Below, in pieces: positions 25,739 to 40,505 of a stretch of 64,000 nucleotides of DNA (positions are counted from its first letter, which is position 1; each line of letters begins with the position of its first letter). The notes below the pieces were generated by a model. It was not told the origin of the DNA. It did not search any database and worked only from the letters and a program-made list of their open reading frames with translations. Made by a program: the position numbers and the translations under genes. Source of the DNA: Azoarcus sp. Aa7 (lineage in GTDB: Bacteria > Pseudomonadota > Gammaproteobacteria > Burkholderiales > Rhodocyclaceae). The stretch covers positions 1 to 64,000 of the forward strand of contig NZ_QVLR01000027.1 of the NCBI RefSeq assembly GCF_014822185.1, read 5' to 3'.

Positions 25739-26845
25739 CTAACGCAGCAACGCCACGCCCTTCACCTGCGCAAACAGGTCCATTCCGGGTGCGATGCCCA
25801 TCTGCACCGCGGAGCGCGTCGTGATGCGCGCGAGCAACGCACGGCCGGCGACGTCCAGGCGCACCAGCGTGCGTCCGGGGCTCGCGTCGTCGAGCGACAC
25901 CACGCGCGCCGGCAACACGTTGAGGATGCTCGAATCGTGGCGTTCCGCGAGCGCCAGGCTCACGTCGCGCGCCAGCACGCGGGCGCGCACCTGCGCCCCG
26001 AGCGGCGCGTCCAGCCCGGTGATCCATAGCGGCAGTCCGGCGAATTCGAGCCGCGTCAGCGCGAAACGCTCGTCGCGCCCCGCCACCTGCGCATCGACGA
26101 CGACGAAGGCCTCCTCGTCGTGCGCGAAGGGCAAGTCCAGGCGCGGCATCACCTCGTCGATCGCGCCGGACGCGAGCACCCGCCCGTCGCGCAGCAGCAC
26201 GACGTGGTCCGCCAGCCGCGCGACCTCCTCCGGCGCGTGGCTCACGTACACGACGGGGATGTCCAGCTCGCCGTGCAGGCGCTCCAGATAGGGCAGGATC
26301 TCCGCCTTGCGCTGCGCGTCGAGCGCGGCCAGCGGCTCGTCCATCAGCAGCAGGCGCGGACTGGTCGCCAGCGCGCGGGCGATCGCGACGCGCTGGCGCT
26401 CGCCGCCCGAAAGCCGCTCCGGCATGCGCTCGAGCAGCGGCTCGATGCCGAGGAGCGCGATTGCATGATCGAGCGACACGCGACGCTCGGCCGCGGCGAC
26501 CCGCTTCAGGCCGAATTCGAGGTTGCGCCGCACCGACAGGTGCGGAAACAGGCTCGCTTCCTGGAACACGTAGCCGAGCGGGCGGCGATGCGTCGGCACG
26601 TACACGCCGCGCACATCGTCCTGCCACACCTCGCCGCGCACCGCGAGATAGCCGTCCGTCGCCCGCTCCAGGCCCGCGAGACAGCGCAGCAGCGTCGTCT
26701 TGCCCGATCCGGAATGGCCGAACAGCGCGCTCACGCCGCGCCCGGGCAGCTGCAGCGCCGCGTCCAGCGCAAAGCCGGACCACGCCAGCCGGAAGCGCGC
26801 CTCGATACCGCTGCCGGAGACCCGAACTGCGGCGGCGGGACTCAT
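25739..26845 (-). CDS. modC: Molybdate ABC transporter ATP-binding protein
   Basis: The 368-residue ATPase has Walker [10 protein letters not shown] (43-51), the signature [15 protein letters not shown], and Walker [13 protein letters not shown] with a following H-loop VSHAPEEV. The C-terminal third (about 295-365) is a Mop-like domain that binds molybdate and tunes the transporter, as in ModC. It energises ModAB. Its ATG overlaps the modB stop by four bases. Confidence 0.96.
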
Positions 26846-27513
26846 CGCACACCCCCACGCTTGCGGCTATAGAGCAGGAGCAGCACGAGGAAGCTGAACG
26901 CCACCATGCCTGCGGAGAGCCAGTGCGCCTGCGCATATTCGAGCGCCTCGACGTGGTCGTAGATCTGCACCGACACGACGCGCGTCTTCTCCGGGATGTT
27001 GCCGCCTATCATCAGCACCACGCCGAACTCGCCGACCGTATGGGCGAAGCCCAGCACCGCGGCGGTGACGAAGCCGGGGCACGCCAGCGGCAGCACGACG
27101 GTGAAAAAGGTGTCGAGCGCACCGGCGCGCAAGGTTGCGGCGACTTCCAGCGGCCGCTCGCCGATCGCCTCGAAAGCCTGCTGCAACGGCTGGACGACGA
27201 AGGGCAGCGAATAAAACACCGAGCCGACGACGAGACCGGCGAAGGTGAAGGGCAGCACGCCGAGCCCCAGCGCCTGCGTGAGCTGGCCGACCGGACCCTG
27301 CGGCCCCATCGTCACGAGCAGGTAGAAGCCGATCACCGACGGCGGCAGCACGAGCGGCAATGCGACGACCGCGCCGATCACACCCTTCATGCGCGAGCGC
27401 GTGCGCGCCAGCCACCACGCGACGGGCGTGCCGACGACGAGCAGGATCGCGGTCGTCACCGCCGCGAGCTCCAGCGTGAGGCGGATCGCCGCAAAGTCGG
27501 CTGCGTTCGTCAT
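26842..27513 (-). CDS. modB: Molybdate ABC transporter permease
   Basis: The 223-residue inner-membrane protein has five or six helices and the permease signature near [20 protein letters not shown], with the ATPase-coupling loop [14 protein letters not shown]-like ([20 protein letters not shown]) and [19 protein letters not shown]. These are standard ModB features. It lies 13 bases after modA and overlaps modC, so modABC is one transcription unit. Confidence 0.95.
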
Positions 27514-27526
27514 CGATCAGTCCGCC

Positions 27527-29156
<1,630 letters not shown>

Positions 29157-29178
29157 GTTGTCCACCATTCTATGGTCA

Positions 29179-29193
29179 ATCGTATATAGCGAT
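29179..29193. promoter_or_regulatory. Putative ModE operator
   Basis: ATCGTATATAGCGAT is a near-palindrome; on the minus strand it reads ATCGCTATATACGAT and shares the ATCGCTATATA half of the E. coli ModE box. It lies 11-23 bases before the modE starts, in the intergenic region shared with the divergent molbindin gene. The second half-site spacing differs from E. coli. Confidence 0.5.
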
Positions 29194-29346
29194 TATCATG
29201 CCAAGACCCAGGTCGTTATGGTTGCGCCTATACCGTTGTGAAACGTAGAGTATTTCCGTAGCGGCGCTCTGCAGACCGACACACTTTATATGTAGTCAAT
29301 GATACAGCGTGTCACATTCCGAACAAACGCGACAAGGAGTACGGCC

Positions 29347-29775
29347 ATGAAGGTGAGTGCACGCAACGTCTTTGCGGGGAAGGTCTGCGCCGTGAAACCG
29401 GGGAGCGTGAATGCCGAGGTCGAGCTCGAGTTGCCGGGCGGCGACCGCCTCGTCGCGATCGTCACGCAGGAAAGCGTGATGACGCTGGGCATCGCGGAAG
29501 GGCGCGAGGTCGTCGCGCTCGTCAAGGCGCCGTGGGTGATGCTGATGACCGAGGGGAGCGGGATGCGGTTGTCCGCGCGCAACTGCCTCGCCGGCACGGT
29601 GAAGGCGGTGCAGCCCGGCGCGGTGAACGCGGAGGTCGTGCTGACGCTCGCCGGCGGCAGCGAAGTTGCCGCGATCGTCACGAAGGAGGCGGTCGCCGAA
29701 CTGGGCCTAAGGCCGGGCGTCGCTGCGACCGCGGTGATCAAGGCCTCGCACATCGTCCTCGGTGTGCCGATCTAG
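29347..29775 (+). CDS. Two-domain molbindin (Mop family molybdate-binding protein)
   Basis: The 142-residue soluble protein consists of two tandem ~70-residue Mop domains: the first begins MKVSARNVFAGKV, the second LSARNCLAGTVKAVQPGAVNAEV. Each has the TKEA/TQES-(V)xxLG segment that lines the anion site. Mop proteins bind molybdate in the cytoplasm and buffer or store it. AAGGAGT precedes the ATG at 29347. It is divergent from modE across a 190-base AT-richer region and is probably regulated with it. A single-domain Mop would be half this size. Confidence 0.92.
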   Translation: MKVSARNVFAGKVCAVKPGSVNAEVELELPGGDRLVAIVTQESVMTLGIAEGREVVALVKAPWVMLMTEGSGMRLSARNCLAGTVKAVQPGAVNAEVVLTLAGGSEVAAIVTKEAVAELGLRPGVAATAVIKASHIVLGVPI

Positions 29776-29946
29776 CACTTTTGTGCAATCCGTCACGCAC
29801 TTCGCAAGCCTAAGGCCTTGAATTCCGTTGCCATCCCGTTCATGCTGCCCGCGCATAAGATATATGTGACCAATAAGAAGAAAACGCGGCTCACGTGCCC
29901 ATGTTCACGGCACGGGACCACTTGATCCACAAAGGGGACGGCAGGA

Positions 29947-30870
29947 ATGATCAGGTTGATTGAGGGCGCGCGGGACGCCAGGCAGGCGTTCGCCGGTCGC
30001 CGACGCTTCATGCTCGGACTGTTGTCGACCGTCGGCCTCGCGCTGGCCGAAAGGTCGATCCCGACAGCCTCGGCCGCCGGCGAACCGCCACTGGTGATGG
30101 GAATCTTCCCGCGCCGGCAGGCAACGCTGACCACGGAACTTTACGCCCCGCTTGCCGCATACCTCACCCGCGAACTCGGGCGCGAGGTTCGAATCGTCAC
30201 CGCGAAGGATTTCGACGCATTCTGGGACGGTGTCGAGCAGCGGCGCTTCGATATCGTCCACTACAACCAGTTCCACTACGTCCGCTCCGCCGACAAGTAT
30301 CGCGTCATCGCGCACAACGAGGAGTTCGGCACCGGCACGGTGGCTGGCGCGCTCTACGTCAGGAAGGACAGCGGCATCACCGGGGTCCCCCAGCTGAAGG
30401 GACGCAAGATCGTGTTCGGCGGGGGCACGGACGCGATGATGAGCTACATCCTGCCGAGCTACCTGCTGCTCGAGGCCGGGCTGAAGCCCGACGACTACGA
30501 GACGGTATTCTCGAAGAATCCGCCGAACTCGCTGATTTCGCTGTACCACGGCCAGGCCGACGCCAGCGGGGCGGGCGACATCCTGATCGATCTGCCGGTG
30601 GTGCGTGAAGCGATGGACACCGGCACCGTCACCCACCTCGGCATGACCGAGCGGGTGCTGCACCTGCCCTGGGCCGTGCGCAAGGACATGCCACAGGCGC
30701 TCGCCACGCGCATCCAGGCGCTACTGACCGGACTGAAGGCTCGCGAGGACGGCCGCATGATCCTCGCCCGCGCGGAAATGACCGGCTTCGGCGCGGCGCG
30801 CGACGCCGACTACGACCCGCACCGCCGCATCATCCGCAAGGTCATGCCGTCGATCGACATTCCGCGCTGA
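29947..30870 (+). CDS. PhnD-like periplasmic substrate-binding protein
   Basis: The 307-residue protein has an N-terminal GRRRFMLGLLS segment resembling a twin-arginine signal (about residues 18-43, ending in ASAAG). A PhnD/phosphonate-type binding fold follows: MGIFPRRQATLTTELYAPLAAYLTRELG, FDIVHYNQFHYVR, LKGRKIVFGGGTDAMMSY and ADASGAGD. PhnD relatives bind phosphonate, phosphite or other oxyanions. No permease or ATPase is nearby; instead a GGDEF-EAL gene starts 15 bases downstream, so it more likely serves as a ligand sensor than as a transporter component. The ligand is not evident. Confidence 0.88.
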   Translation: MIRLIEGARDARQAFAGRRRFMLGLLSTVGLALAERSIPTASAAGEPPLVMGIFPRRQATLTTELYAPLAAYLTRELGREVRIVTAKDFDAFWDGVEQRRFDIVHYNQFHYVRSADKYRVIAHNEEFGTGTVAGALYVRKDSGITGVPQLKGRKIVFGGGTDAMMSYILPSYLLLEAGLKPDDYETVFSKNPPNSLISLYHGQADASGAGDILIDLPVVREAMDTGTVTHLGMTERVLHLPWAVRKDMPQALATRIQALLTGLKAREDGRMILARAEMTGFGAARDADYDPHRRIIRKVMPSIDIPR

Positions 30871-30885
30871 GCACGGAGAGCGCCC

Positions 30886-32952
30886 GTGCGCCTTGCGAGC
30901 AAGTTCATCCTCATCGTGGCCGGGATCCTCTCGGTGACGCTGGCGCTGAACGCCTATTTCTTCCTCCGCGGCCAGAACCGGATCCTGGAGCAGCAGCTCG
31001 ACGAACGCGGCCGCGTGCTGGGCCACCTGATCGCGCTGATCAGCCCCGAGGCGATCCTCGGCCTCGATTTTCTGACCCTCAACGAGTACGCGCGCGAGAT
31101 CAGCCGGCAGCACGACGTCGTCTATGGCGTGATCGTCGATACCGACGACAGGCCGCTGACGTCCTATGTGAACGGCGACGACCCGCGCGTGCGCGCCGGC
31201 CTTGGCGTCGACGGACCCGCGCCCACCCACCTGCAGCCACCCCGCCTGCAGGCGCTGATCCAGCAGCTCGCCCAGTTGCCCGACGTGATCCCGGCCGAGT
31301 TCCCCATCGTCCACGACGGACACGAGCTGGGCCGCCTGCGGCTCGGCATCAGCCGCGAGAAGCTGGCGATCCAGGCCCGCGAACAGCTCGTGCAGCAGAT
31401 CGGCGTCTATGCGGCGATCATCCTGTTCCTGAGTGCCGCGATCTACCTGGTATTCAAGTACAGCGTGATGCACCCGGTGCAGCGCCTGATCGAGGTGTCG
31501 CGCGATCTCGGGCGCGGCGAGTTCACGCTCGTCCCCGTAAGGTCGGGCGACGAACTCGGGCGGCTGGGCGAGACCTTCAACGCGATGACCCGCGAGATCC
31601 AGCGCGAACAGGCCAAGCTGCACTACCAGGCGAACTACGACTCGCTGACGTCACAACCGAACCGGATGCTCGCGGTCGAGCGGCTGCAGCAGGAGATCCG
31701 CTCGGCGCACCGCCAGCAGCAGCGCTTCGCGCTGATGTTCATCGACCTCGACGATTTCAAGATCGTCAACGACACGATGGGGCACGCCGCGGGAGACCGC
31801 CTGCTCACGCACGTCAGCGCGCACATCCGCGCCCGCCTGCGCGAGGAGGACACGCTCGCGCGACTCGGCGGCGACGAATTCCTGGTGCTGTTGCCGCGCC
31901 TGGCCCAGGCGAACGAGGCGCGTGACGTCGCCCGCAGGCTGCTCGAGGCGGTGTCCGAACCGGTGACGCTCGACGGACGCGAAGTGGTTGTCCACTGCAG
32001 CATCGGCATCGCGCTGTACCCCGACGACGGCGAAACGGTCGAGGCGCTGATGGCCAATGCGGACAACGCCATGTACCAGGCGAAGAAGCCAGGGCGGCCG
32101 CCGATCTGCTTCTTCACCGCGGAGATGAATGCGCAGGTCCACGAGCGGTTGCGCCTGGAACAGGACCTGAACAAGGTCCTCGCGCGCGGCGAGCTGCAGC
32201 TCGCGTTCCAGCCGATCTTCCGCGCCGGGGACGGCACCTACGTCGGCGCCGAGGTGCTGCTGCGCTGGAGGCATCCGGAACGCGGCTTCATCAGCCCGGC
32301 GACCTTCATCCCGCTCGCCGAGAGCACCGGCCAGATCGTCGCGATCGGCGAATGGGTGCTGCGCGAGGCGGGCCGGCAGCTGCGCCGCTGGCTCGACGCG
32401 GGACTCGCACCGGGGTATCTGGCGGTGAACCTCTCGCGCGTGCAGCTGCGCGAGGACCTGGAACAGCTGATCCGCAGCGTCCTCAGCGACAACGCCTTGC
32501 CTCCGCAGGCTCTGGAGCTCGAGATCACCGAGAACATCCTGCTCGACGACCACCAGCAGATCAACGCGGTGCTGGGGCGGCTGCATGGACAGGGGCTGCG
32601 CTTCAGCCTCGACGACTTCGGCACCGGCTACTCGTCGCTCAGCTACCTGCGTCGCTTCTCGTTCGACACGCTGAAGATCGATCGCAGCTTCGTCGCCCCG
32701 CTGTGCGAGGACGCGGAGGCGGCCGCACTGGTGCGCGCGATCGTCGCGATGGCGCACAGCCTGGCACTGAAGGTGATCGCCGAGGGGGTGGAAACGCGCG
32801 CGCAGCTGGAATTTCTCCAGGATCTGGGCTGCGATTACCTGCAGGGCTATCTGCTGTCGCACCCGCTCGACGCCGAACACTTCACCGCCTTCCTGACCCG
32901 CATCGCCCGCGAATCGCAGCCGTGGGGCAGCGTGGCGGTCGTCGCGCAATGA
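30886..32952 (+). CDS. HAMP-GGDEF-EAL cyclic-di-GMP signalling protein
   Basis: The 688-residue membrane protein starts at GTG with CGGAGAG upstream. It has a first transmembrane helix (about 7-27), a ~145-residue periplasmic domain, a second helix (about 172-192), and HAMP (about 192-245). GGDEF follows (LGGDEF, 327-332), then EAL, whose motif reads EVL at 456-458; the downstream EITEN, LDDFGTGYSSLSYLRRF and AEGVET motifs are intact. Ser/Gln replace Gly/Ala in the usual DxLTGLPNR block (DSLTSQPNR). The periplasmic domain is positioned to contact the PhnD-like protein encoded upstream. Its stop overlaps the next start (ATGA). Confidence 0.92.
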   Translation: MRLASKFILIVAGILSVTLALNAYFFLRGQNRILEQQLDERGRVLGHLIALISPEAILGLDFLTLNEYAREISRQHDVVYGVIVDTDDRPLTSYVNGDDPRVRAGLGVDGPAPTHLQPPRLQALIQQLAQLPDVIPAEFPIVHDGHELGRLRLGISREKLAIQAREQLVQQIGVYAAIILFLSAAIYLVFKYSVMHPVQRLIEVSRDLGRGEFTLVPVRSGDELGRLGETFNAMTREIQREQAKLHYQANYDSLTSQPNRMLAVERLQQEIRSAHRQQQRFALMFIDLDDFKIVNDTMGHAAGDRLLTHVSAHIRARLREEDTLARLGGDEFLVLLPRLAQANEARDVARRLLEAVSEPVTLDGREVVVHCSIGIALYPDDGETVEALMANADNAMYQAKKPGRPPICFFTAEMNAQVHERLRLEQDLNKVLARGELQLAFQPIFRAGDGTYVGAEVLLRWRHPERGFISPATFIPLAESTGQIVAIGEWVLREAGRQLRRWLDAGLAPGYLAVNLSRVQLREDLEQLIRSVLSDNALPPQALELEITENILLDDHQQINAVLGRLHGQGLRFSLDDFGTGYSSLSYLRRFSFDTLKIDRSFVAPLCEDAEAAALVRAIVAMAHSLALKVIAEGVETRAQLEFLQDLGCDYLQGYLLSHPLDAEHFTAFLTRIARESQPWGSVAVVAQ

Positions 32953-33530
32953 CCGGGATGCAGCCCGACGCCGCACTCGCCGCGATGCGCGACCGCCAGC
33001 GCGCCGCGCGCCAAGCCCGCCGCGTCGTCGTGACGCGCGGCGCGCTGGCCGCGGCCGCCGTGGTCGGCTTCGTGCTGTGGGCCAACTTCGGCTCCGGTCG
33101 TCCGGTGTTTTCGCCACACGGCACCCCCGAAACCGGCTGGGACGCGTTTCGCGAAACGTACGGCGTCGACACCTTCGGCCGCGACGGCTACTTCGTGCGC
33201 GCGATACAGAACGGCTACAACCTCGTGCACCACACCCACAAGTACGCCTGGCGCTTCACGCGCAAGGGTGCCCTCGACCATCCGAACGCGTGCATCGACT
33301 GCCACAGTGCGGAGGCGCTCGCGTACGCCTTCGCGGCCAGCGACCGCTTCGACGCACGGCTCGGCCGGCGGGTGTCATTCGAAGAGCACGTGATGCGCTG
33401 CTACGCCACGCATCTCGACGGTTTCGTCCCGACGACCTACGACCCGGCGGTGCGCGACATCCGCATATTTGCACGCATGGTCGCCCATCACCTGCAACTC
33501 GGCGAGGGCGCACTGGAGCGCACCCCGTGA
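32949..33530 (+). CDS. Membrane-anchored monoheme cytochrome c-like protein
   Basis: The 193-residue protein has one transmembrane helix (about 30-45) after a positively charged N-terminus, placing the rest in the periplasm. It contains a single CxxCH heme motif, CIDCH at 115-119, and several other His residues (HHTHK around 94-98) that could ligate the iron. I do not recognise a named family. Four-base overlaps with both neighbours show that it is translated as part of the operon, so it probably exchanges electrons with the diheme cytochrome encoded next. Confidence 0.8.
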   Translation: MTGMQPDAALAAMRDRQRAARQARRVVVTRGALAAAAVVGFVLWANFGSGRPVFSPHGTPETGWDAFRETYGVDTFGRDGYFVRAIQNGYNLVHHTHKYAWRFTRKGALDHPNACIDCHSAEALAYAFAASDRFDARLGRRVSFEEHVMRCYATHLDGFVPTTYDPAVRDIRIFARMVAHHLQLGEGALERTP

Positions 33531-34624
33531 AGCGGCTCCTGCCGGGGTGGAAGAAGGCCGTCCGCCTCGCCCTGGTGGTGAGCGTGCTGTTCGGGCTGTA
33601 TGCGCTCACGCTCGCGCGCCACGACGAGCGCGCGCGCATCCGCGAGCAGCCGGTGACGCTGACCCCGGGCTGCGCCGACAAGCTCGCCCGCTACGGCCTC
33701 GAGGCCGGCCCCCGCTACATTTCGCCCTACGTGCTCGCGCGCACGGAGCAAGCGAACACCCGGCAAGGCTACAGCGACGAGGACGTGCGCGCGATCCAGC
33801 GCGGCTGCAACATCATCGACGACCTGCAGGGCCAGCTGGCCGCGGATCCCGCGCGCGAACGCTGGAACGCGACCCGCTTCGTGCGCGGCACGCATAGCAG
33901 CTGCGACCACTGCCACCAGGGCATCGGCGACAAGCAGACCGCGGCCGGCGTGCCGCAGACCGGCTCGCTGAGCCTCGCCGCGTCGTGGGTCATGGCGGAC
34001 ATGTACGACCAGTTCACCGGCATCCTGCTGCCTTACGAGCTGCGCCAGATGCAGTGCTACATCAACTCGTCGAACGGCTACAAACCGAACGTCGCCGACG
34101 ACCTCATCCGCGACGTCACCGCGTACAGCCGCTTCCTCGCCGCGGCGCTCGACCTGCGCTTCGGCAACCGCTATGCGGAACAGGGCATCGACGAGGTGAC
34201 CGCGTCGCAGACAGCGAAGCGCGGCGACGACTACGTGCGCGGCGCCGCGCTGTTCAAGGAGAGATGCGCGCGCTGCCACGGCCCGCAGGGGCTCGGCACG
34301 GTCGTCGACGGCAAGGTGCTGTTCCCGGCGGTGGCCGGCCCGAACGCGTTCAACCTGCAGTCGCGCAACAACTTCTCGTTCGTGTCGACGATTCTGCCGG
34401 GTTTCATCTGCCGCAACATGCCGCCCGGCGAGGAGGGCACGCTGAGCAACCAGGATTGTCGCGACATCGGCTTCTACGTCAGCAACCTGCCGCGGCCGGC
34501 CGGTGACAAGCAGGGGCCGCTCGCGGCGCTGTGGCAGCAGCTCATGATGCGGGTGATGCCGCCGCTGATCCATACCGTCGAGACCTGGCAACGGCCCGGC
34601 GAACCAGCGGGGAGCGGGACGTGA
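33527..34624 (+). CDS. Diheme cytochrome c, TsdA-like
   Basis: The 365-residue protein starts at GTG within the previous stop and has an N-terminal helix (about 11-30). It carries two heme motifs, CDHCH at 126-130 and CARCH at 247-251. Between them, QCYINSSNGYKP (Cys178) resembles the segment carrying the axial cysteine heme ligand of thiosulfate dehydrogenase TsdA; NMPPG (Met298) could ligate the second heme. TsdA interconverts thiosulfate and tetrathionate, but the resemblance here is by motif only. Its operon partner, a SulP transporter, is consistent with an oxyanion-related role. Confidence 0.78.
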   Translation: MKRLLPGWKKAVRLALVVSVLFGLYALTLARHDERARIREQPVTLTPGCADKLARYGLEAGPRYISPYVLARTEQANTRQGYSDEDVRAIQRGCNIIDDLQGQLAADPARERWNATRFVRGTHSSCDHCHQGIGDKQTAAGVPQTGSLSLAASWVMADMYDQFTGILLPYELRQMQCYINSSNGYKPNVADDLIRDVTAYSRFLAAALDLRFGNRYAEQGIDEVTASQTAKRGDDYVRGAALFKERCARCHGPQGLGTVVDGKVLFPAVAGPNAFNLQSRNNFSFVSTILPGFICRNMPPGEEGTLSNQDCRDIGFYVSNLPRPAGDKQGPLAALWQQLMMRVMPPLIHTVETWQRPGEPAGSGT

Positions 34625-36204
34625 ATGTGAAGGCCGCGGTGTTTTCGTGGGTGCCGCCGCGCGTGGGCGCGCTCGGCAACGAGTTGCTGATCGGGCTCAC
34701 GCTCGCGATTGTCGTGCTGCCCCAGGCGATCGCGTTCTCGACGACGCTGGCCGGGCTGCCGTCGTATGTCGGCCTCTACTGCGCGATCTGGGGCGTGCTG
34801 TTCACGGCGCTGCTGAACCCGTCGCGAGTGTTCCACGGCGGCCCGAACAGCACGCTGTCGGCGGTCGTCGGCGTCACGCTGCTGCCGGTCGCGCCGCAAT
34901 TCGGCCCCGACTACATCGGCTACGCATTGACGCTGTTCCTGCTCGCCGGGCTGATCCAGCTGGTGTTCCTCGCCGTGCAGCCGCTCGGCCGCGTGCTCGA
35001 CTTCGTCAGCGAACCGGTCGCCAACGGCATGATCTGCGGCATCGGCCTGTACATGATCTTCAAATCCTTCCCGGCCTTCGCCGGCCTGCCGATCAACACC
35101 CAGGTCGAATGGCGCCTGTGGATCGCGTGGCAGAGCTTTCTGGCGGTGCTCGAGATCGGCAACATGCACGCGATCCATATCGGGCTGATCACGCTATTGG
35201 TGACCGTCGTCACGCGCCAGTTCGACCGGTTCCGCAACTGGGCGATCCTGCTCGGCATCGTCGCCGGCACGCTGTATTCGGAGTTCCTGAACGCACGGCT
35301 CGGCCTCGGCGAAACGCTGATCGAACAGACCGCGAACGTCTCCACGGGCTTCGTGTATCCATCCGTGCCGCTGTTCGCCCAGGAGGCGATGCCGGACATC
35401 ATCAGCATCATCCCCGGCGCGGTCACGCTCGCGCTGCTGGGCCTGTTCCAGACGGTCGCGGCGATGCGGCGCATGAACCGCCGCAGCGGCCAGTTCGTCG
35501 ACGCCCGCCACGGCATCTTCGCCGACGCGCTCTCCAACTGCGTGCTGCCGTTCATCTCGGCGCTGCCGACCTGCGCGTCGTTCAACCGCATGTCGCTGAT
35601 GCACGCGATGAACACCGGCAGCCGGCTCGCCGCCGTGTCATCGGCGCTGTTCCTGCTCGCGCTGGTGAGCTTCTTCGGCGACTTCATCGCCATCATCCCG
35701 GTGCCGGCGATGGCGGCGATCATCATGGTGGTCGGCGCCAACATGATCGACTGGTCGGACATCCGCGCGCACTTTCAGCACCGCCCGGAAGCGATCGTGT
35801 TCAGCGCATCCTTCCTGTCGGTGCACTTGTTCGGTCTCTTCGGCGCGGTGATCTGCGGCTCGCTGCTCGCACTCGCCTACGCCAAGTGGGAGAAGGCGCA
35901 CCCCAACGTCAGCCTCGAGCGCAACGTGCTGCGCATCCGCGGCAACATCTACTATGGCTCGCTGCCGGTGATCGAATCGCTCTACCATCGGGCCAACAGC
36001 GACGCGCGTTTCGATGAACTCGTCGTCGACTTCTCCGCCGTGCATCACATCGACCCGGAAGGCATCCGCTGGCTCGCGGAGGTCGGCAAGAACCACAAGG
36101 TCCGCTTCGCCGACCGGCGAAGCGGACAGGATCGGCGCGCGGCCGCGGGCGAAGCGCCGGCGGACCGCAAGCGCAAAGACCGACGCCGCCGGCGCACGCT
36201 GTAG
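34621..36204 (+). CDS. SulP family anion transporter with STAS domain
   Basis: The 527-residue membrane protein has the SulP core of 10-14 helices: LTLAIVVLPQAIAFSTTLAGLPSYVGLY near the N-terminus (helix 1 signature), VFHGGPNSTLSAVVGVTLL, and PFISALPTCASFNRMSLM. A cytoplasmic STAS-like domain (about 438-505) follows, with VVDFSAVHHIDPEGIRWL, and then a very basic tail. SulP proteins move sulfate, bicarbonate, molybdate or other anions. The substrate is not readable from sequence; the cytochromes upstream make a sulfur oxyanion attractive and bicarbonate an alternative. The GTG overlaps the previous stop, closing the five-gene operon. Confidence 0.9.
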   Translation: MNVKAAVFSWVPPRVGALGNELLIGLTLAIVVLPQAIAFSTTLAGLPSYVGLYCAIWGVLFTALLNPSRVFHGGPNSTLSAVVGVTLLPVAPQFGPDYIGYALTLFLLAGLIQLVFLAVQPLGRVLDFVSEPVANGMICGIGLYMIFKSFPAFAGLPINTQVEWRLWIAWQSFLAVLEIGNMHAIHIGLITLLVTVVTRQFDRFRNWAILLGIVAGTLYSEFLNARLGLGETLIEQTANVSTGFVYPSVPLFAQEAMPDIISIIPGAVTLALLGLFQTVAAMRRMNRRSGQFVDARHGIFADALSNCVLPFISALPTCASFNRMSLMHAMNTGSRLAAVSSALFLLALVSFFGDFIAIIPVPAMAAIIMVVGANMIDWSDIRAHFQHRPEAIVFSASFLSVHLFGLFGAVICGSLLALAYAKWEKAHPNVSLERNVLRIRGNIYYGSLPVIESLYHRANSDARFDELVVDFSAVHHIDPEGIRWLAEVGKNHKVRFADRRSGQDRRAAAGEAPADRKRKDRRRRRTL

Positions 36205-36229
36205 TCGCCAACCACGGGCCGAAAGGGAC

Positions 36230-36245
36230 GGGAGGGGCGCCTCCC
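36230..36245. terminator. Possible terminator hairpin after the SulP gene
   Basis: A GGGAGG/CCTCCC stem with a 4-base loop lies 26 bases after the SulP stop, between convergent genes. It has no T-run, so support is weak. Confidence 0.3.
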
Positions 36246-36322
36246 TCAATAGCGCGTGGCGGACCCGGTGTCCAACCCGCTACGGCCGCGCGCCTTGCAG
36301 GCCGGCCCTTCCCGCACGAGAC

Positions 36323-36703
36323 TTACTTCTTCGCGATCGTCGCGTCCTCGACCAGCAGCGGGTACATGTAGCCCGACCCGAAGTCGCGGTCGAGCTTGAC
36401 GTTGCCGGTCACGACGACCTCGTCGCCGACCGCCGCCGTGTCCTTGCTCGTGACGATGAGGTTGTTGCTGCCCTCCTCGCCCGAACCGTCGCGCACGTGG
36501 ACGAAGTTGCGTCCCATGATGCCGTTGTTCACCTTGACGACTTTGCCGCTGACCTGGATCGCCTTGCCCGACAGCCCAGCCTTTTCCTGATGCACGGCTG
36601 CAACGGTCTTGACGGCGGCATCTGCGGCAACGGCTGCGGGCGCGCCGGAACCGATCATTCCGGCGATGAGGATGACGCGGGTGAGGGCGAGAACTTTCTT
36701 CAC
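36323..36703 (-). CDS. Periplasmic OB-fold protein (NrfJ-like)
   Basis: The 126-residue protein starts at GTG 36703 with AGGAGT seven bases upstream. It has a signal peptide (about 1-27, ending AVAA) and a small beta-barrel with SGKAIQVSGKVVKVNNGIMGRNFVHVRDGSG, then VGDEVVVTGNVKLDRDFGSGYMYPLLVEDA, a pattern of OB-fold proteins. Similar proteins occur near multiheme cytochrome genes, but their role is unclear. It converges on the cytochrome/SulP operon, which may or may not be functional linkage. Confidence 0.7.
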   Translation of the reverse strand: MKKVLALTRVILIAGMIGSGAPAAVAADAAVKTVAAVHQEKAGLSGKAIQVSGKVVKVNNGIMGRNFVHVRDGSGEEGSNNLIVTSKDTAAVGDEVVVTGNVKLDRDFGSGYMYPLLVEDATIAKK

Positions 36704-36968
36704 GAACAGACTCCTGCTGGTGGGTCCGCATGCGGACATGAGGGCAATGCTGCAGCCGAACATTGTATACCGCGACGCCACCCGGTGAATGGTGTTTGCA
36801 TTTACCAACCCGCCGGGCGGGCACCTCCCCCCTTGGGTCGGCGGCTGTGCTCGCGCCGGGCAGACAAAGAAACGCCCCCGGGCGCGGACCGTGGGGGCCG
36901 CGGCGCGGGGGTGAAAAGTGACCAGGGAGGGCGGTGCAGGCAGGCGGCGAGCGCGTGCTGCGCAGAAC

Positions 36969-38576
36969 TCAGGCCAGGCGGAAGCGGCCGGCGGTGACCT
37001 GCAACCGGGCCGCGACGCCTTCGAGCTGGTGCGCAGCGGTCGCGGTCTCCTTCACAGCGGCGCTGTTCTCCTCGCTCATCTGGGCGGTCTGCTCGACGCG
37101 CCGTGCGATCTCGTTGCTCGCGGTCGACTGCTCGTGCAGCGCGCTCGTGATGTCCTCAACGGCCGCGACGACGTGGCGTGCCTGGTCCGTGAGCGCGCTG
37201 ATCGCGTCGCCCGCCTCGCGCGACAGGGTATCGACGTCGCCCATGTGGGCCACGACCTTTTCCATGCTGGAGACGGCGTCGCGGGTGACGTTCTGCACCT
37301 GCGAGATCATCTCGGTGATCTCCTGCGTCGACTTGCCGGTGCGCTCGGCGAGCTTGCGCACCTCGTCGGCGACGACTGCGAAGCCGCGGCCCTGCTCGCC
37401 CGCGCGCGCCGCCTCGATCGCCGCATTGAGCGCCAGCAGGTTGGTCTGGTCGGCGATGTCGCGGATCACCGCGACGATCGACGAGATCTGGTCGGAGAAG
37501 CCGCCCAGCATGCGGATCTGCTCGGCCGTATGGGTCACTGCGGTAGCCGTGACGCGGCCGCTTTCCACCATGCGCGTGACGATCTCGTGCCCCTCGGCGG
37601 ACTTGCGTCCCGACTCGGTGGCCGCGGCGCGCACGTCCTTGGCATGATCGGACACCTGCGAGATGCTGACCGACATCTCCTCGACCGAGGCCGCCATCGA
37701 GGACGCAGCCTGCGACTGCTGCTCGGTCGAACCCGAGAGCTGCGTCGTCGTCGCCGCGAGCTCCTCGCTCATCGAGGCGAGCCCCTCGGCGTGCTCCTGC
37801 ATGTTCGCCGCGATCTCGCGCAGGTTGCCCTGCATCGTGCGACAGGCCGCGAGCACCTTGGCCAACTCGTCGCGGCCATCAACTTCGAAGGCGTGCGTCA
37901 GATCGCCCCGGGCGATGCGCTCGGCGGCTTCCTGCACGATCTGCAAGGGCTTGAGGATGGAGCGCAGCACGAAACCCGCATACACGGCCAGCCCGATCGC
38001 CGCCGCCACGGCGATGATCGTGATCTCGATCAGCGTCCGGCTGCGCTCTTCATCGAAGAGCTTGTCGGAGTCGAGCGCCTCGCGGCCCATCGACTCCGCG
38101 ACCGTGGCCAGCTGCTCGCGGATGCGGCTCACCGTGGCGTCGGCCTCGTCGTCGATGGCATGGATCGCCGGGTCGACCTCGTTGTCGGCGTTCAGGGCGG
38201 GCAGCAGTCGCTTCTCGAACAGCGTGACGATCGCCTCGACGTCCTTGCGCGCCTGTGCCACGGCCGCTTTCTCGTCGGGCGTGTCCGCCGCCTCGGCAAG
38301 CTGCTGCAGATCGCTGTTCGCCTCGGTCTGCAAGGCGGCAAAGTCCTTTTTCGCCGCGTCGATGTCGCGGTTGATGATCGTGTCGGCGAAGATCTGGTAG
38401 AACTGGGCACCCAGCCACGAGGCCTCCGCCGCGCGCGCCTGCGTTTGCGTGCGGGCAAAGCCGTCGTCCTGGAAATTTGCGAGATGACTCATGCGGTAGA
38501 GCGCGATCCCCATCACCGTGGCAAGCATGAGGAGGGCAATGGCTACCATGACCAGCAGGCGGTGTTTGACGCTCAT
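36969..38576 (-). CDS. Methyl-accepting chemotaxis protein, four-helix-bundle sensor type
   Basis: The 535-residue receptor has a first membrane helix (about 7-27), a ~150-residue all-helical periplasmic domain without Cache features (four-helix-bundle type), a second helix, HAMP, and a long signalling coiled coil. The coil contains the near-invariant hairpin [25 protein letters not shown] followed by [14 protein letters not shown]. The start at 38576 (MSVKHRLLV) has AGGGAG upstream; the frame is open further but the extension looks like noncoding, AT-richer sequence. The signal sensed is unknown. Confidence 0.93.
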
Positions 38577-38867
38577 TTTTCGACTCCCTGACTTTATTGC
38601 GATTCCAGGACGGTCGACTGCCAGCCCGGGTTCAGATCTTAACGTCGCAACCACAACTTTATTAAGGTTATTTTTCTTCAAATTCATGGGGTTAGACGCC
38701 CCAAAATGGGTCGTGCACGCCGTTCGCGCCGCCGGCGATGACCTTTCGCGTGGCGCGCATTCAAAATAGTTACTTGTCCGTCATTCAAGCACGCAATCGC
38801 AGTACACCGGCAATGCAATAATTGGCACTCCACGACTACATCCGCCCGACTTGCAGAGAGATCGACG

Positions 38868-40505
38868 ATGGCACGCATCCACCCCGAAGGCTGGCAACGC
38901 ATCCCCGCAAGCGGGGCGCTGGCGCGCGAACTGGAGACGCTCGCAATGCTCGCGGAAGGACTGCCCGACGACCACGCGGTGTATCACGGCATCCACTGGA
39001 CGCGGGTGAATCGCGACCACGCGCTGTTCGGCGAGATCGACTTCGTCGTCGTCGGCCCGAGCGGGCGTGTGCTGCTGATCGAGCAGAAATCCGGCTTCCT
39101 CGACGAGACGCAGGACGGGCTGGTCAAGACCTACGCTAAGGCGAAGAAGAACGTCAGCGTGCAGATGGCGCGCAGCGCCGACCATCTGCGCGAGCGCCTC
39201 GGCGTGTTCATGAAGGGCCACAAGGCACGCATCGACGCCCTGCTCTACTGCCCCGACTACGCGGTGCGCCAGCCCGGCAGCGCCGGCATCGACCCGGCGC
39301 GCATCGTGGACGCGAGCCGCCGCCAGCACCTCGTCGCAATCGTGGAGAGCCTGCTGCGCGACGAGGTGCGCGATCGCGTCGTGCTCGACAACATCCACCG
39401 CTTCCTCACCGACGAACTGGAGCTGGTACCGGAGGTGAACGCGATCGTCGGCCAGGCCGAGGCGTTATACACCCGGCTCGCCGGCGGGCTGGCCGAATGG
39501 GCGCGGCGCATCGAGATGGCGCCCTTCCGTCTGCGCGTGACCGGCACCGCCGGCAGCGGCAAGACGCAGCTGGCGATGGCGGTGTTCCGCGACGCGCTCG
39601 CGTCCGGGCGGCGGCCGTTGTACGTGTGCTACAACCGTCCGCTCGCCGACCACATCGCGCTGATCGCGCCGCCCGGCGGCGAGATCGCGACCTACCATCA
39701 GCTGTGCGACCGCATGCTGCGGGCCCACGGCGAGGTGCCGGACTTCAGCCGGCCCGACGCGTTCGCACGGCTGGAAACGCGCTTCCGCGAGCTCGAAGCG
39801 GGCGAGGCGTGGCGCTTCGACGAACTGATCGTCGACGAGGGGCAGGATTTCCGCATGGAATGGCTCGACACGCTGCTGCGCCTGTTGCGGCCGGGCGGGC
39901 GCGCGTGGTGGCTGGAAGATCCGCTGCAGAACCTGTACGACCGCCCGCCGGTCGAGCTGCCGGGCTGGGTGCGCATCACCAGCGAACGCAATTACCGCAG
40001 CCCGGGCGACATCCTGTCGGCGCTGAACCGCATGCTGCCGCTGCCACGGGCGCTGGAGGCGGGCAGCCCGCTCGTCGGCTCCGAGGTCGAGTTCCTGACG
40101 TGGGCCGATACCGCCGGGCTCGTCGACGCGACCAAGCGCGCAATGACGCGCGCGATCGGGCTGGGCTTCCGCCGCGACATGATCGCGACGATCACCTTCC
40201 GCGGACGCGAGCATTCGGTGTTCACGCCCTTCGACCGCCTCGGCGCACACCGCCTGAAGGCTTTCACGGGCAGCTACGACCTGCTCGGCAACCCCGTGTA
40301 TTCGGACGGCGACTTCCTCATCGATTCCGTCTACCGCTTCAAGGGCCAGGCGGCCCCGTGCGTGATCTTCACCGAGATCGACTTCGAGGAGCTCGACCCG
40401 TTGACGGTACGCAAGCTCTTCGTCGGCGCGACACGCGCGAGCATGAAGCTGATCCTCGTCGTGTCGGAACGGGCCGCCCGCCAGCTCGCCGCGCGTCTGG
40501 ACTGA
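38868..40505 (+). CDS. NERD nuclease-domain / superfamily I helicase protein
   Basis: The 545-residue protein joins an N-terminal NERD domain (about 15-130) to a UvrD-like helicase. NERD nuclease residues are readable: Glu56 and Asp58 in FGEIDFV and Glu72-x-Lys74 in LIEQKSG. The helicase has Walker A GTAGSGKT (226-233), motif II VDEGQD (322-327) and a late RFKGQAAPCVIF, typical of the UvrD C-terminal lobe, ending with FVGATRA. The helicase is short and lacks large insertions. NERD-helicases are suspected to act in DNA processing or phage defence; direct evidence here is none. It is transcribed alone, divergent from the chemoreceptor. Confidence 0.88.
   Translation: MARIHPEGWQRIPASGALARELETLAMLAEGLPDDHAVYHGIHWTRVNRDHALFGEIDFVVVGPSGRVLLIEQKSGFLDETQDGLVKTYAKAKKNVSVQMARSADHLRERLGVFMKGHKARIDALLYCPDYAVRQPGSAGIDPARIVDASRRQHLVAIVESLLRDEVRDRVVLDNIHRFLTDELELVPEVNAIVGQAEALYTRLAGGLAEWARRIEMAPFRLRVTGTAGSGKTQLAMAVFRDALASGRRPLYVCYNRPLADHIALIAPPGGEIATYHQLCDRMLRAHGEVPDFSRPDAFARLETRFRELEAGEAWRFDELIVDEGQDFRMEWLDTLLRLLRPGGRAWWLEDPLQNLYDRPPVELPGWVRITSERNYRSPGDILSALNRMLPLPRALEAGSPLVGSEVEFLTWADTAGLVDATKRAMTRAIGLGFRRDMIATITFRGREHSVFTPFDRLGAHRLKAFTGSYDLLGNPVYSDGDFLIDSVYRFKGQAAPCVIFTEIDFEELDPLTVRKLFVGATRASMKLILVVSERAARQLAARLD

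Follow-up and report, generated by a model that had tools for sequence, protein, structure and literature searches.

Operon Organization and Conservation

The window analyzed here, a 64,000-nucleotide stretch of DNA from Azoarcus sp. Aa7 (contig NZ_QVLR01000027.1, positions 1 to 64,000), contains a 6.3-kb stretch in which five genes follow each other on the same strand:

29947..30870, + strand: gene 1, PhnD-fold periplasmic binding protein (307 aa; Pfam PF12974, Phosphonate-bd, 161 bits)
30886..32952, + strand: gene 2, HAMP-GGDEF-EAL membrane protein (GTG start; Pfam GGDEF 171, EAL 246, HAMP 42 bits)
32949..33530, + strand: gene 3, monoheme c-type cytochrome (one CxxCH; SoxA/TsdA-like domain)
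33527..34624, + strand: gene 4, diheme TsdA-like cytochrome (GTG start; Pfam Cytochrome_CBB3 37 bits)
34621..36204, + strand: gene 5, SulP-family anion transporter (GTG start; Pfam PF00916, Sulfate_transp, 160 bits; STAS 22.9 bits)

As described in the original prediction, genes 1 and 2 are spaced by 15 bp, and the junctions 2/3, 3/4 and 4/5 each overlap by 4 bp. The synteny by which that prediction was to be judged has also been found: the same five genes occur in the same order in eight further genomes of beta- and gammaproteobacteria, including the gammaproteobacterium Marinobacterium profundum (57-78% identity). Because the order recurs in eight other genomes, all of which keep 15 bp between the first two genes, this arrangement is more than chance, and spacing together with conservation suggests a single transcript for all five genes. 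No sigma-70-like site was found in 29600-36400 (0.6 expected by chance), and an RNA switch upstream of the operon was rejected, an Rfam scan of 26000-39000 giving no match. A plasmid home was likewise rejected, as gene 1 had no relative at E<1e-40 among 72,556 plasmid records and the plasmid matches of gene 4 (30 records) are distant, all below 60% identity. Within the genus, 10 of 17 genomes gave no match to gene 4 at E 1e-50.

A Periplasmic Binding Protein Paired With Signaling Proteins

The structure model of gene 1 (pLDDT 68, modest) matched PtxB, PhnD, AioX, ArrX and XAC2383 in Foldseek. Since the models are too weak for pocket geometry, the binding pocket was compared by sequence alignment. 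In Te_PtxB, the pocket involves Y55, Y100, S130-T131-S132, H160, D22 and Y208 (PMC5700983). The STS-H motif is missing in gene 1, with S130-T131-S132 aligned to A163-M164-M165 and H160 to P192, and so is the Tyr/Asp cap (Y55 to F89, Y100 to V132, D22 to R56, Y208 to L240). The protein contains no Cys, and the Ser/Ser/His pocket of the AioX/ArxX/ArrX type (Ser161/Ser163/His192 conserved, plus Cys106 in AioX; PMC5908839) is absent, as judged via the PtxB alignment rather than a direct AioX alignment. By these alignments, gene 1 is a member of a sub-family that lacks the STS-H oxyanion pocket found in PhnD/PtxB. Phosphite or phosphonate was consequently rejected as a likely ligand, the STS-H motif and the cap being lost, and arsenite is unlikely, there being neither Cys nor Ser/His pocket. 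Against the TtrS-type family, gene 1 scored only 26.9 bits.

Among 369 genomes, this sub-family has 26 other matches at E<1e-70, and the gene after the binding protein codes for a signal protein in 22 of the 26 (GGDEF 9, histidine kinase 7, chemoreceptor or MCP 6). In the remaining four, a contig end cuts the next gene once and the signal gene is missing downstream three times (the second copy at L087, L103, whose next frame has no Pfam family, and L105). Neighbor tables were built on our own reading-frame calls, not on annotated genes. L094 was scored as an MCP, Pfam giving HAMP only in the first frame and the MCP part being recognized by eye in the next; contig ends cut L060 and L106, and the partners of these two and of L110 were assigned outside the neighbor-frame tables. 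Molybdenum genes adjoin several copies of the sub-family.

According to the alignment of its orthologs, gene 2 consists of a transmembrane segment, a periplasmic input domain (aa ~28-168), a second transmembrane segment, HAMP, GGDEF (with RxxD) and EAL (EVL here). In Foldseek, its model (pLDDT 67.6, modest) weakly resembled sCache/PAS sensors and a LapD ortholog. A related periplasmic input domain is present in 22 of the 25 partner proteins tested and absent from three. The distances between binding proteins and those between partner N-termini (first 300 residues) correlate (r 0.69, 26 pairs; none of 2000 permutations reached it), a value not corrected for the relatedness of the species. Because 22 of 26 next genes are signaling genes and 22 of 25 partners share the input domain, genes 1 and 2 very probably form a bipartite receptor of the NspS-MbaA or XAC2383-XAC2382 kind.

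The PhnD-domain proteins of the same genome conform to this pattern: all four above 100 bits are fused to, or lie beside, a signal protein, and a PhnD-PAS-PAS-GGDEF-EAL fusion is encoded elsewhere. As the original prediction had noted, no ABC permease or ATPase lies within the operon, and no PhnE exceeds the cut-off in this genome (best 58.4 bits; cut-off 216.7), so that no partner was found for gene 1 as part of a transporter. Together, the sub-family neighborhoods, the fusion and the missing PhnE favor the earlier proposal that the binding protein presents its ligand to the GGDEF-EAL protein.

Cytochromes and SulP Permease Belong to a Wider TsdA-SulP Unit

Gene 4 matched thiosulfate dehydrogenase chains in phmmer (4wqc, 3.4e-20; 4wq7, 2.3e-19), while Pfam SoxA-TsdA (PF21342) gave no match even at E 0.1. 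It carries two CxxCH hemes, with equivalents of Cys123, Arg119, Ser127 and Met236 present in the four gene-4 sequences compared for these features; those of the Cys (residue 177, the catalytic one), Arg119 and Ser127 were found in all 11 gene-4 sequences, residue roles being taken from PMC4423706. Arg109 of TsdA is replaced by Phe in 11/11. At this position, 10 TsdA-like proteins encoded upstream of SulP have Lys (nine) or Ser (one), and two further TsdA-like proteins of the same genome retain Arg. The R109A variant of TsdA was reported to be only mildly lowered in activity (PMC4423706). Overall, gene 4 is TsdA-like, with catalytic Cys, Arg119 and Ser127 kept.

Gene 3 reached no Pfam cut-off (best relevant family SoxA-TsdA, 14.2 bits; cut-off 27); within gene 4, the first domain is its homolog. 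Across 11 sequences, its CxxCH and heme-ligand Cys are invariant, the Ser127 position is never Ser and the Arg119 position is Arg in six, the window copy having His. A hydrophobic stretch was seen by eye at its N-terminus. Its identification as TsdB was rejected, since it is SoxA/TsdA-like with one heme whereas TsdB is diheme.

In gene 5, the STAS domain is marginal and partial (22.9 bits; cut-off 22.6). Of the SulPs most similar to gene 5, the first 16 (three being loci of genes 3-5 or 4-5) all come after a TsdA-like gene, as do 19 of the best 50 SulP matches, a count that leaves out the lower-ranked G278, already seen beside a TsdA-like gene. TsdA matches down to about E 4e-7 were used for this pairing, own-genome matches being left out, and at least 18 genomes carry it. 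C-terminal cNMP-binding and rhodanese domains occur in two of the three TsdA-linked SulPs scanned. This pairing, with its rhodanese fusions, points to an uncharacterized transporter of sulfur metabolism; no mention of a tsdA-sulP operon was found in PMC9237845, PMC6548844 and PMC9032823. Since the cytochromes and SulP belong to this wider unit, our best guess for the operon is a sulfur oxyanion, and because gene 4 is TsdA-like and the nearest SulPs follow TsdA-like genes, a sulfur oxyanion rather than phosphite is the likely substrate. The device envisaged in the original prediction is supported in part, with a sulfur oxyanion as the likelier compound and phosphite, phosphonate and arsenite as unlikely ones. 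The same genome also encodes a TtrS-like protein and a TtrA-like enzyme.

Genes 3-5 also occur apart from genes 1-2, as in L050 without the gene-1 binding protein; no sensor was seen on the 15.6-kb contig that carries them in G199, so the redox unit does not need one. In 2 of 15 extended loci (L051, L120), a second PhnD-fold protein lies divergently beside TsdA-SulP, with no adjoining signal gene in the frames listed.

The C-terminal tail of gene 5 is Arg-rich ([D/E]RRxGxDRR...RR). Such a tail was found in the SulP of all nine five-gene operons, window included. It is missing from the three SulPs of loci where relatives of genes 3-5 or 4-5 stand without a GGDEF-EAL gene (the upstream region of L052 lying outside view), and the remaining frames of the scanned loci showed no copy of the motif. 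The cNMP-binding and rhodanese domains of the two TsdA-linked SulPs mentioned above take the place of such a tail. Tail matches at L003, L006 and L054 were assigned to SulP genes by coordinates. As only two lineages carry the tail, its correlation with the five-gene arrangement is thin.

Proposed Function and Alternative Explanations

Collectively, these data are best explained by a c-di-GMP receptor joined to a sulfur-oxyanion redox unit, a reading to which we assign a probability of about 0.5. The receptor is its firmest part and highly probable: gene 1 would bind a small anion in the periplasm, close, and dock on the gene-2 protein at its sCache/LapD-like input domain, shifting the balance of the latter protein between c-di-GMP synthesis and breakdown. 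By analogy with norspermidine acting on NspS-MbaA, our guess is that the ligand favors synthesis. The redox unit, genes 3-5, is reasonably well supported: its two Cys-ligated SoxA/TsdA-type cytochromes, probably membrane-anchored, would act on a sulfur oxyanion by oxidation (or reduction), with thiosulfate/tetrathionate as the likeliest pair, and the SulP permease would carry sulfate, the substrate or the product across the inner membrane. Their coupling is more tentative, at slightly below even odds. The receptor may sense the substrate or product of the operon's own cytochromes, the sensor ligand presumably being the cytochrome substrate, and c-di-GMP would then adjust attachment and motility to its supply, perhaps along with the activity of the TsdA-like enzyme. 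We infer the contact between genes 1 and 2, the ligand, and the directions of c-di-GMP change and of transport. An improbable extension is a self-contained circuit in which c-di-GMP made locally by genes 1-2 directly gates SulP via the Arg-rich tail, and hence TsdA-like flux; if true, the operon would itself produce the second messenger that switches its SulP permease.

In a rival explanation, genes 1-2 sense some other small anion or nutrient and came to lie upstream of the cytochrome-SulP genes through a shared niche, the ligand then differing from the cytochromes' substrate. The sub-family is indeed widespread with kinase, MCP and GGDEF partners, and no gene 3-, 4- or 5-like sequence was found outside the five-gene operon near its members (0/25 loci for the 26 matches; E<1e-5, 3.5-16 kb per locus), so its ligand need not be a sulfur oxyanion; the occurrence of genes 3-5 without the binding protein in L050, and of molybdenum genes next to several copies, points the same way. 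However, gene order, short spacers and overlaps are kept between Aromatoleum and Marinobacterium, a different PhnD-fold protein adjoins cytochrome-SulP in two further genomes, and six genomes carry both the gene-1 sub-family and TsdA-SulP against 0.98 expected, among the matches listed and with relatedness not removed. We hold this explanation to be less likely than not.

A second possibility, considerably more remote, is redox sensing, in which the cytochromes of genes 3-4 would hand electrons or a persulfide state on to the input domain of gene 2, leaving gene 1 an accessory role. Besides the co-encoding of the five genes, it draws on gene 3, whose heme Cys without the TsdA Ser127 could fit a sensing or partner role instead of catalysis. 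Elsewhere, however, the related input domain accompanies the binding protein without gene 3-4-like sequence, no CxxCH was seen by eye in gene 2, and we know of no precedent for such cytochrome-to-input-domain sensing. Ordinary transport, gene 1 scavenging its ligand for SulP or for an ABC system elsewhere, is the least probable: gene 1 has relatives among ABC binding proteins and a SulP is encoded in the operon, but the genome has no PhnE over the cut-off, relatives have signal proteins as partners, no SulP using a binding protein is known to us, and L117, where an ABC ATPase gene immediately precedes the binding protein and which thereby illustrates a transport-type protein of this fold, is a weak match to gene 1 (E 8e-31, 23.6% identity).

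Sensing of external sulfur by regulators is little understood (PMC11582611), and in c-di-GMP networks only one family among the 27 in the periplasmic-binding-protein clan had been studied (PMC8846402). The operon provides a concrete, testable case in which a binding protein, a c-di-GMP enzyme and candidate redox enzymes stand together, in a genus with named, cultured strains. In addition, the gene-1 sub-family extends beyond the operon, one fold and a related input domain being joined to c-di-GMP, kinase or chemotaxis output; therefore, one ligand found would bear on many orphan receptors. Our searches of open-licence papers gave no description of phosphonate-binding proteins tied to GGDEF, chemotaxis and histidine kinase output.

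Comparison With Known Systems

The original prediction held that no such system had been described. This stands at most for the five-gene set, of which our searches of open-licence papers found no description; XAC2383-XAC2382, NspS-MbaA and c-di-GMP control of TsdA have all been described.

In Xanthomonas citri, XAC2383-XAC2382 reportedly constitute a periplasmic receptor and a diguanylate cyclase, in work attributed to Teixeira et al. 2018. As in genes 1-2, a PhnD-fold periplasmic protein is paired with a c-di-GMP enzyme, and the Foldseek search with gene 1 also matched XAC2383 structures. XAC2383 is missing from the 17 PDB sequences found with the gene-1 profile (E<0.01), which suggests a different sub-family, and to our knowledge neither cytochromes nor SulP have been linked to the pair. 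NspS is PotD-like, not PhnD-like, and we know of no redox genes with NspS-MbaA. In Vibrio cholerae, this periplasmic binding protein controls its co-encoded GGDEF-EAL membrane enzyme, and the genes overlap (PMC8967002). NspS-MbaA is thus the worked-out analog of genes 1-2, its ligands being polyamines.

TtrS-TtrR offers a PhnD-domain sensor for a sulfur oxyanion, tetrathionate; TtrS differs in being a single polypeptide with kinase output. The AioX, ArxX and ArrX sensors also have a kinase output. Like gene 1, they are PhnD-fold sensors standing first in a signal system, one that controls oxyanion redox enzymes (PMC5908839); unlike them, gene 1 contains no Cys, and Ala/Met/Pro stand where its alignment with PtxB places the pocket Ser/Ser/His.

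With TsdA and TsdBA, gene 4 shares both hemes, the Cys ligand and the Arg119, Ser127 and Met236 equivalents (PMC4423706, PMC9237845). The differences are the Phe at Arg109, the monoheme gene 3 instead of a diheme TsdB, and SulP downstream of gene 4. Finally, in Qipengyuania flava, control runs through a LOV kinase, a DGC, an mPilZ protein and TsdA, c-di-GMP stimulating TsdA via the mPilZ protein (PMC10267684). The input is blue light there, whereas a periplasmic ligand is predicted here, with the genes in one operon.

Organization and Distribution of the Operon

The operon, on contig C27 of a genome of 5.39 Mb, consists of the following genes:

29947-30870 (+), gene 1, PhnD-like binding protein
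30886-32952 (+), gene 2, HAMP-GGDEF-EAL protein
32949-33530 (+), gene 3, monoheme cytochrome
33527-34624 (+), gene 4, diheme TsdA-like cytochrome
34621-36204 (+), gene 5, SulP transporter

The five genes named in the original prediction were borne out, coordinates included, with one 15-bp gap and three 4-bp overlaps. Pfam assigned Phosphonate-bd, HAMP-GGDEF-EAL, diheme cytochrome and Sulfate_transp-STAS to genes 1, 2, 4 and 5, respectively, the monoheme cytochrome having no family over cut-off. The expected co-occurrence in the same order was likewise found in eight other genomes, by tblastn of the five proteins on loci that gene 1 had found: Aromatoleum toluolicum, toluvorans, toluclasticum and diolicum, a beta-proteobacterial MAG (L006), Marinobacterium profundum (L007) and two more genomes of the genus (L055 and L056). 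In all eight, genes 1 and 2 are separated by 15 bp. Judged by gene 1, the nearest named relatives of the window are Aromatoleum species; the Marinobacterium counterpart of gene 1 is 57% identical over the full length, and the five proteins show local identities of about 60-78% to that locus.

Gene 4 is present at E 1e-50 in 7 of 17 genomes of the genus and, at E<1e-40, was found in none of 398 genomes drawn from the phylum beyond the window's own. Among 369 genomes of the class, close relatives of genes 3-5 occur in G199 and G299 and those of genes 4-5 in G468, where the contig ends inside gene 4. The sparse, patchy distribution of the five-gene set suggests that it may have spread horizontally.

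Several neighboring genes recur. A small secreted protein, OB-fold-looking by eye and without Pfam match, is encoded 3' of the operon (36323-36748, minus strand) and found near it in six Aromatoleum relatives, upstream in L005 and L056. In the window, modB, modA, a ModE-like regulator and a TOBE/mop gene lie 5' of the operon (26842-29775), and modB/modA/modE genes are close 5' of it in four relatives. MoaA is encoded 3' of the Marinobacterium operon (L007:16202-17452), and a MoaA-like frame, recognized by eye (L089:9322-10299), lies near a gene-1/kinase pair.

A Probable Bipartite Receptor From a Sub-Family With Three Kinds of Output

Our firmest conclusion is that genes 1 and 2 very probably constitute a bipartite receptor. 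A profile built from eight rows of gene 1, with membership set at E<1e-70, retrieved 26 further sub-family members, spread over 20 of the 368 remaining genomes of the class. Pfam scans of the following same-strand frame gave a GGDEF protein in nine cases (EAL seen in eight), a histidine kinase in seven and a methyl-accepting chemotaxis protein (MCP) in six; in one case this frame is cut by the contig end, and in three no signal gene follows. One additional member (L008) is followed by a HAMP-MCP gene. Gene 2 carries a periplasmic input domain (residues 28-168) that recurs in 22 of 25 partners, covering all three kinds and including those of L007 and L008 (weakest match 20 bits, with E-values for the 25-sequence set); it was not detected in the partners at L096, L098 and L109.

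No ABC operon was seen around sub-family members in the frames listed, L060, L106 and L110 having none listed; at L099 and L101, an ABC ATPase gene lies on the opposite strand, beyond the partner. At L117, a weak match only 23.6% identical to gene 1, the gene immediately upstream encodes an ABC ATPase, as expected of a transporter protein.

In a tree of 30 binding proteins, MCP-linked members form one clade (100/99), and GGDEF- and kinase-linked members are interleaved. Partner labels require 5 changes versus 11.9 on shuffling, the well-supported branches alone forcing only one change per label. Pairwise distances between binding proteins and partner N-termini correlate with r 0.69 (26 pairs), a figure which includes species history.

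In the six orthologues displayed, gene 2 seems to have an intact GGDEF domain with an RxxD inhibitory site and intact EAL catalytic residues. At the EAL signature, the window, L002, L007 and L056 have EVL, and L005 and L006 have EAL. Both synthesis and breakdown of c-di-GMP are possible activities. In Foldseek, the input-domain model (pLDDT 67.6) weakly matched sCache/PAS sensor domains and CdgS9, a LapD orthologue.

In the window's own genome, all four PhnD-domain proteins above 100 bits, gene 1 included, go with signal output; two weaker matches lie on contigs C80 (29.8 bits, over cut-off) and C16 (below cut-off). The three others are:

L139:4725-11917 (G000:C83), PhnD-like protein and histidine kinase, next to a gene for an ArrA/PhsA-like molybdoenzyme
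L141:4706-10264 (G000:C89), TtrS-like PhnD-kinase, TtrR-like regulator and TtrA-like tetrathionate reductase, all under NCBIfam cut-offs
L140:5469-8651 (G000:C79), 1060-residue PhnD-PAS-PAS-GGDEF-EAL fusion

The Predicted Binding Pocket of Gene 1

Because the structure model has a mean pLDDT of 68, the pocket was compared by sequence alignment. Two alignments with Te_PtxB agree on the residue mapping. The phosphite ligands Y55, Y100, S130-T131-S132 and H160, and the cap D22/Y208 (PMC5700983) correspond to F89, V132, A163-M164-M165, P192 and R56, L240 in gene 1. Residues R56-R57, Y106-N-Q-F-H-Y111, G158-G160, M164, S166-Y167, K190 and P192-P193 are invariant in the eight profile rows, and the protein contains no cysteine. 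As judged from these alignments, the predicted pocket is different from those of PhnD and PtxB, and presumably also from that of AioX/ArrX.

TsdA-Like Cytochromes and TsdA-SulP Units

With TsdA chain 4wq7 as reference, gene 4 retains the equivalents of His80, Arg119, Cys123, Ser127, His191 and Met236, and carries Phe for Arg109 and Asn for Lys235 (numbering of PMC4423706). The cysteine, Arg119, Ser127 and the Phe at Arg109 are conserved in 11 of 11 orthologues. Among substitutions in TsdA, those of Arg119 were most harmful and those of Arg109 mild (PMC4423706). Gene 3 repeats the catalytic domain in a single-heme form, its CxxCH motif and cysteine being invariant in 11 sequences. Ser is found at the Ser127 position in none of these, Arg at the Arg119 position in six (His in the window) and Arg at the Arg109 position in seven, window included. 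Gene 3 may act as electron partner, docking subunit or weak second active site.

The 16 SulPs best matching gene 5 among the 368 remaining genomes of the class, three of which come from loci with genes 3-5 or 4-5, are each immediately preceded by a TsdA-like match, with 18-162 bp between matched stretches; among the first 50, this holds for 19. C-terminal cNMP-binding and rhodanese domains occur in two of three TsdA-linked SulPs scanned, as proteins of ~935 residues encoded directly 3' of TsdA-like genes (L118:2670-5474 and L120:1816-4638), L124 lacking them; at L121, a separate frame just downstream carries both. A diheme cytochrome is encoded 5' of TsdA at L124 and L127. The presence of rhodanese and TsdA together makes sulfane-sulfur or thiosulfate chemistry our best guess.

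A SulP C-terminal tail, [D/E]RRxGxDRR...RR, was seen only in five-gene operons (window, L002-L007, L055 and L056) and is absent from SulPs of L050-L052. Another genome of the window's taxonomic family (L053, G149:C313) has TsdA-like and SulP-like matches (24-29% identity) and a LuxR-type response regulator on a 3.5-kb contig.

Sensor Ligand and Cytochrome Substrate

The original prediction tied the sensed oxyanion to a compound processed by the cytochromes. We put the odds of such a link, from the ligand of the sensor to the substrate of the cytochromes, slightly below even. No gene 3-, 4- or 5-like sequence was found at E<1e-5 in 25 sub-family loci, and genes 3-5 occur without a gene-1 sub-family sensor in L050 (G199); the proposed link therefore draws on three points. 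The first is the five-gene operon. The second is another PhnD-fold protein, divergently encoded, which in G299 (L051) adjoins genes 3-5 and in G438 (L120) adjoins TsdA-SulP, two of 15 extended loci (L050-L052, L118-L129). These two proteins share 37% identity with each other and, over short stretches, ~24% with gene 1, and no signal gene lies next to them in the frames listed. The third is genome co-occurrence: the 20 genomes with the gene-1 sub-family and the at least 18 with TsdA-SulP overlap in six versus 0.98 expected (hypergeometric 1.4e-4, kinship included).

Comparison With Known Systems

The original prediction held that no described system has this set. This stands for the five-gene combination, which was not found in the open-licence literature searched, but receptor/c-di-GMP pairs were already described. 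The same literature yielded no gene-1 sub-family with its own putative pocket and three output kinds, no pair of Cys-ligated cytochromes, no SulP tail seen only with a GGDEF-EAL gene and no description of the SulP-STAS-cNMP-rhodanese/TsdA pairing recurrent in Gammaproteobacteria. XAC2383-XAC2382 reportedly form a periplasmic receptor/diguanylate cyclase pair, and XAC2383 shares the gene-1 fold (Foldseek match). NspS-MbaA is a further periplasmic receptor/c-di-GMP enzyme pair (PMC8967002), the AioX family comprises PhnD-fold sensors of oxyanion redox enzymes (PMC5908839), and control of TsdA by c-di-GMP has already been described (PMC10267684).
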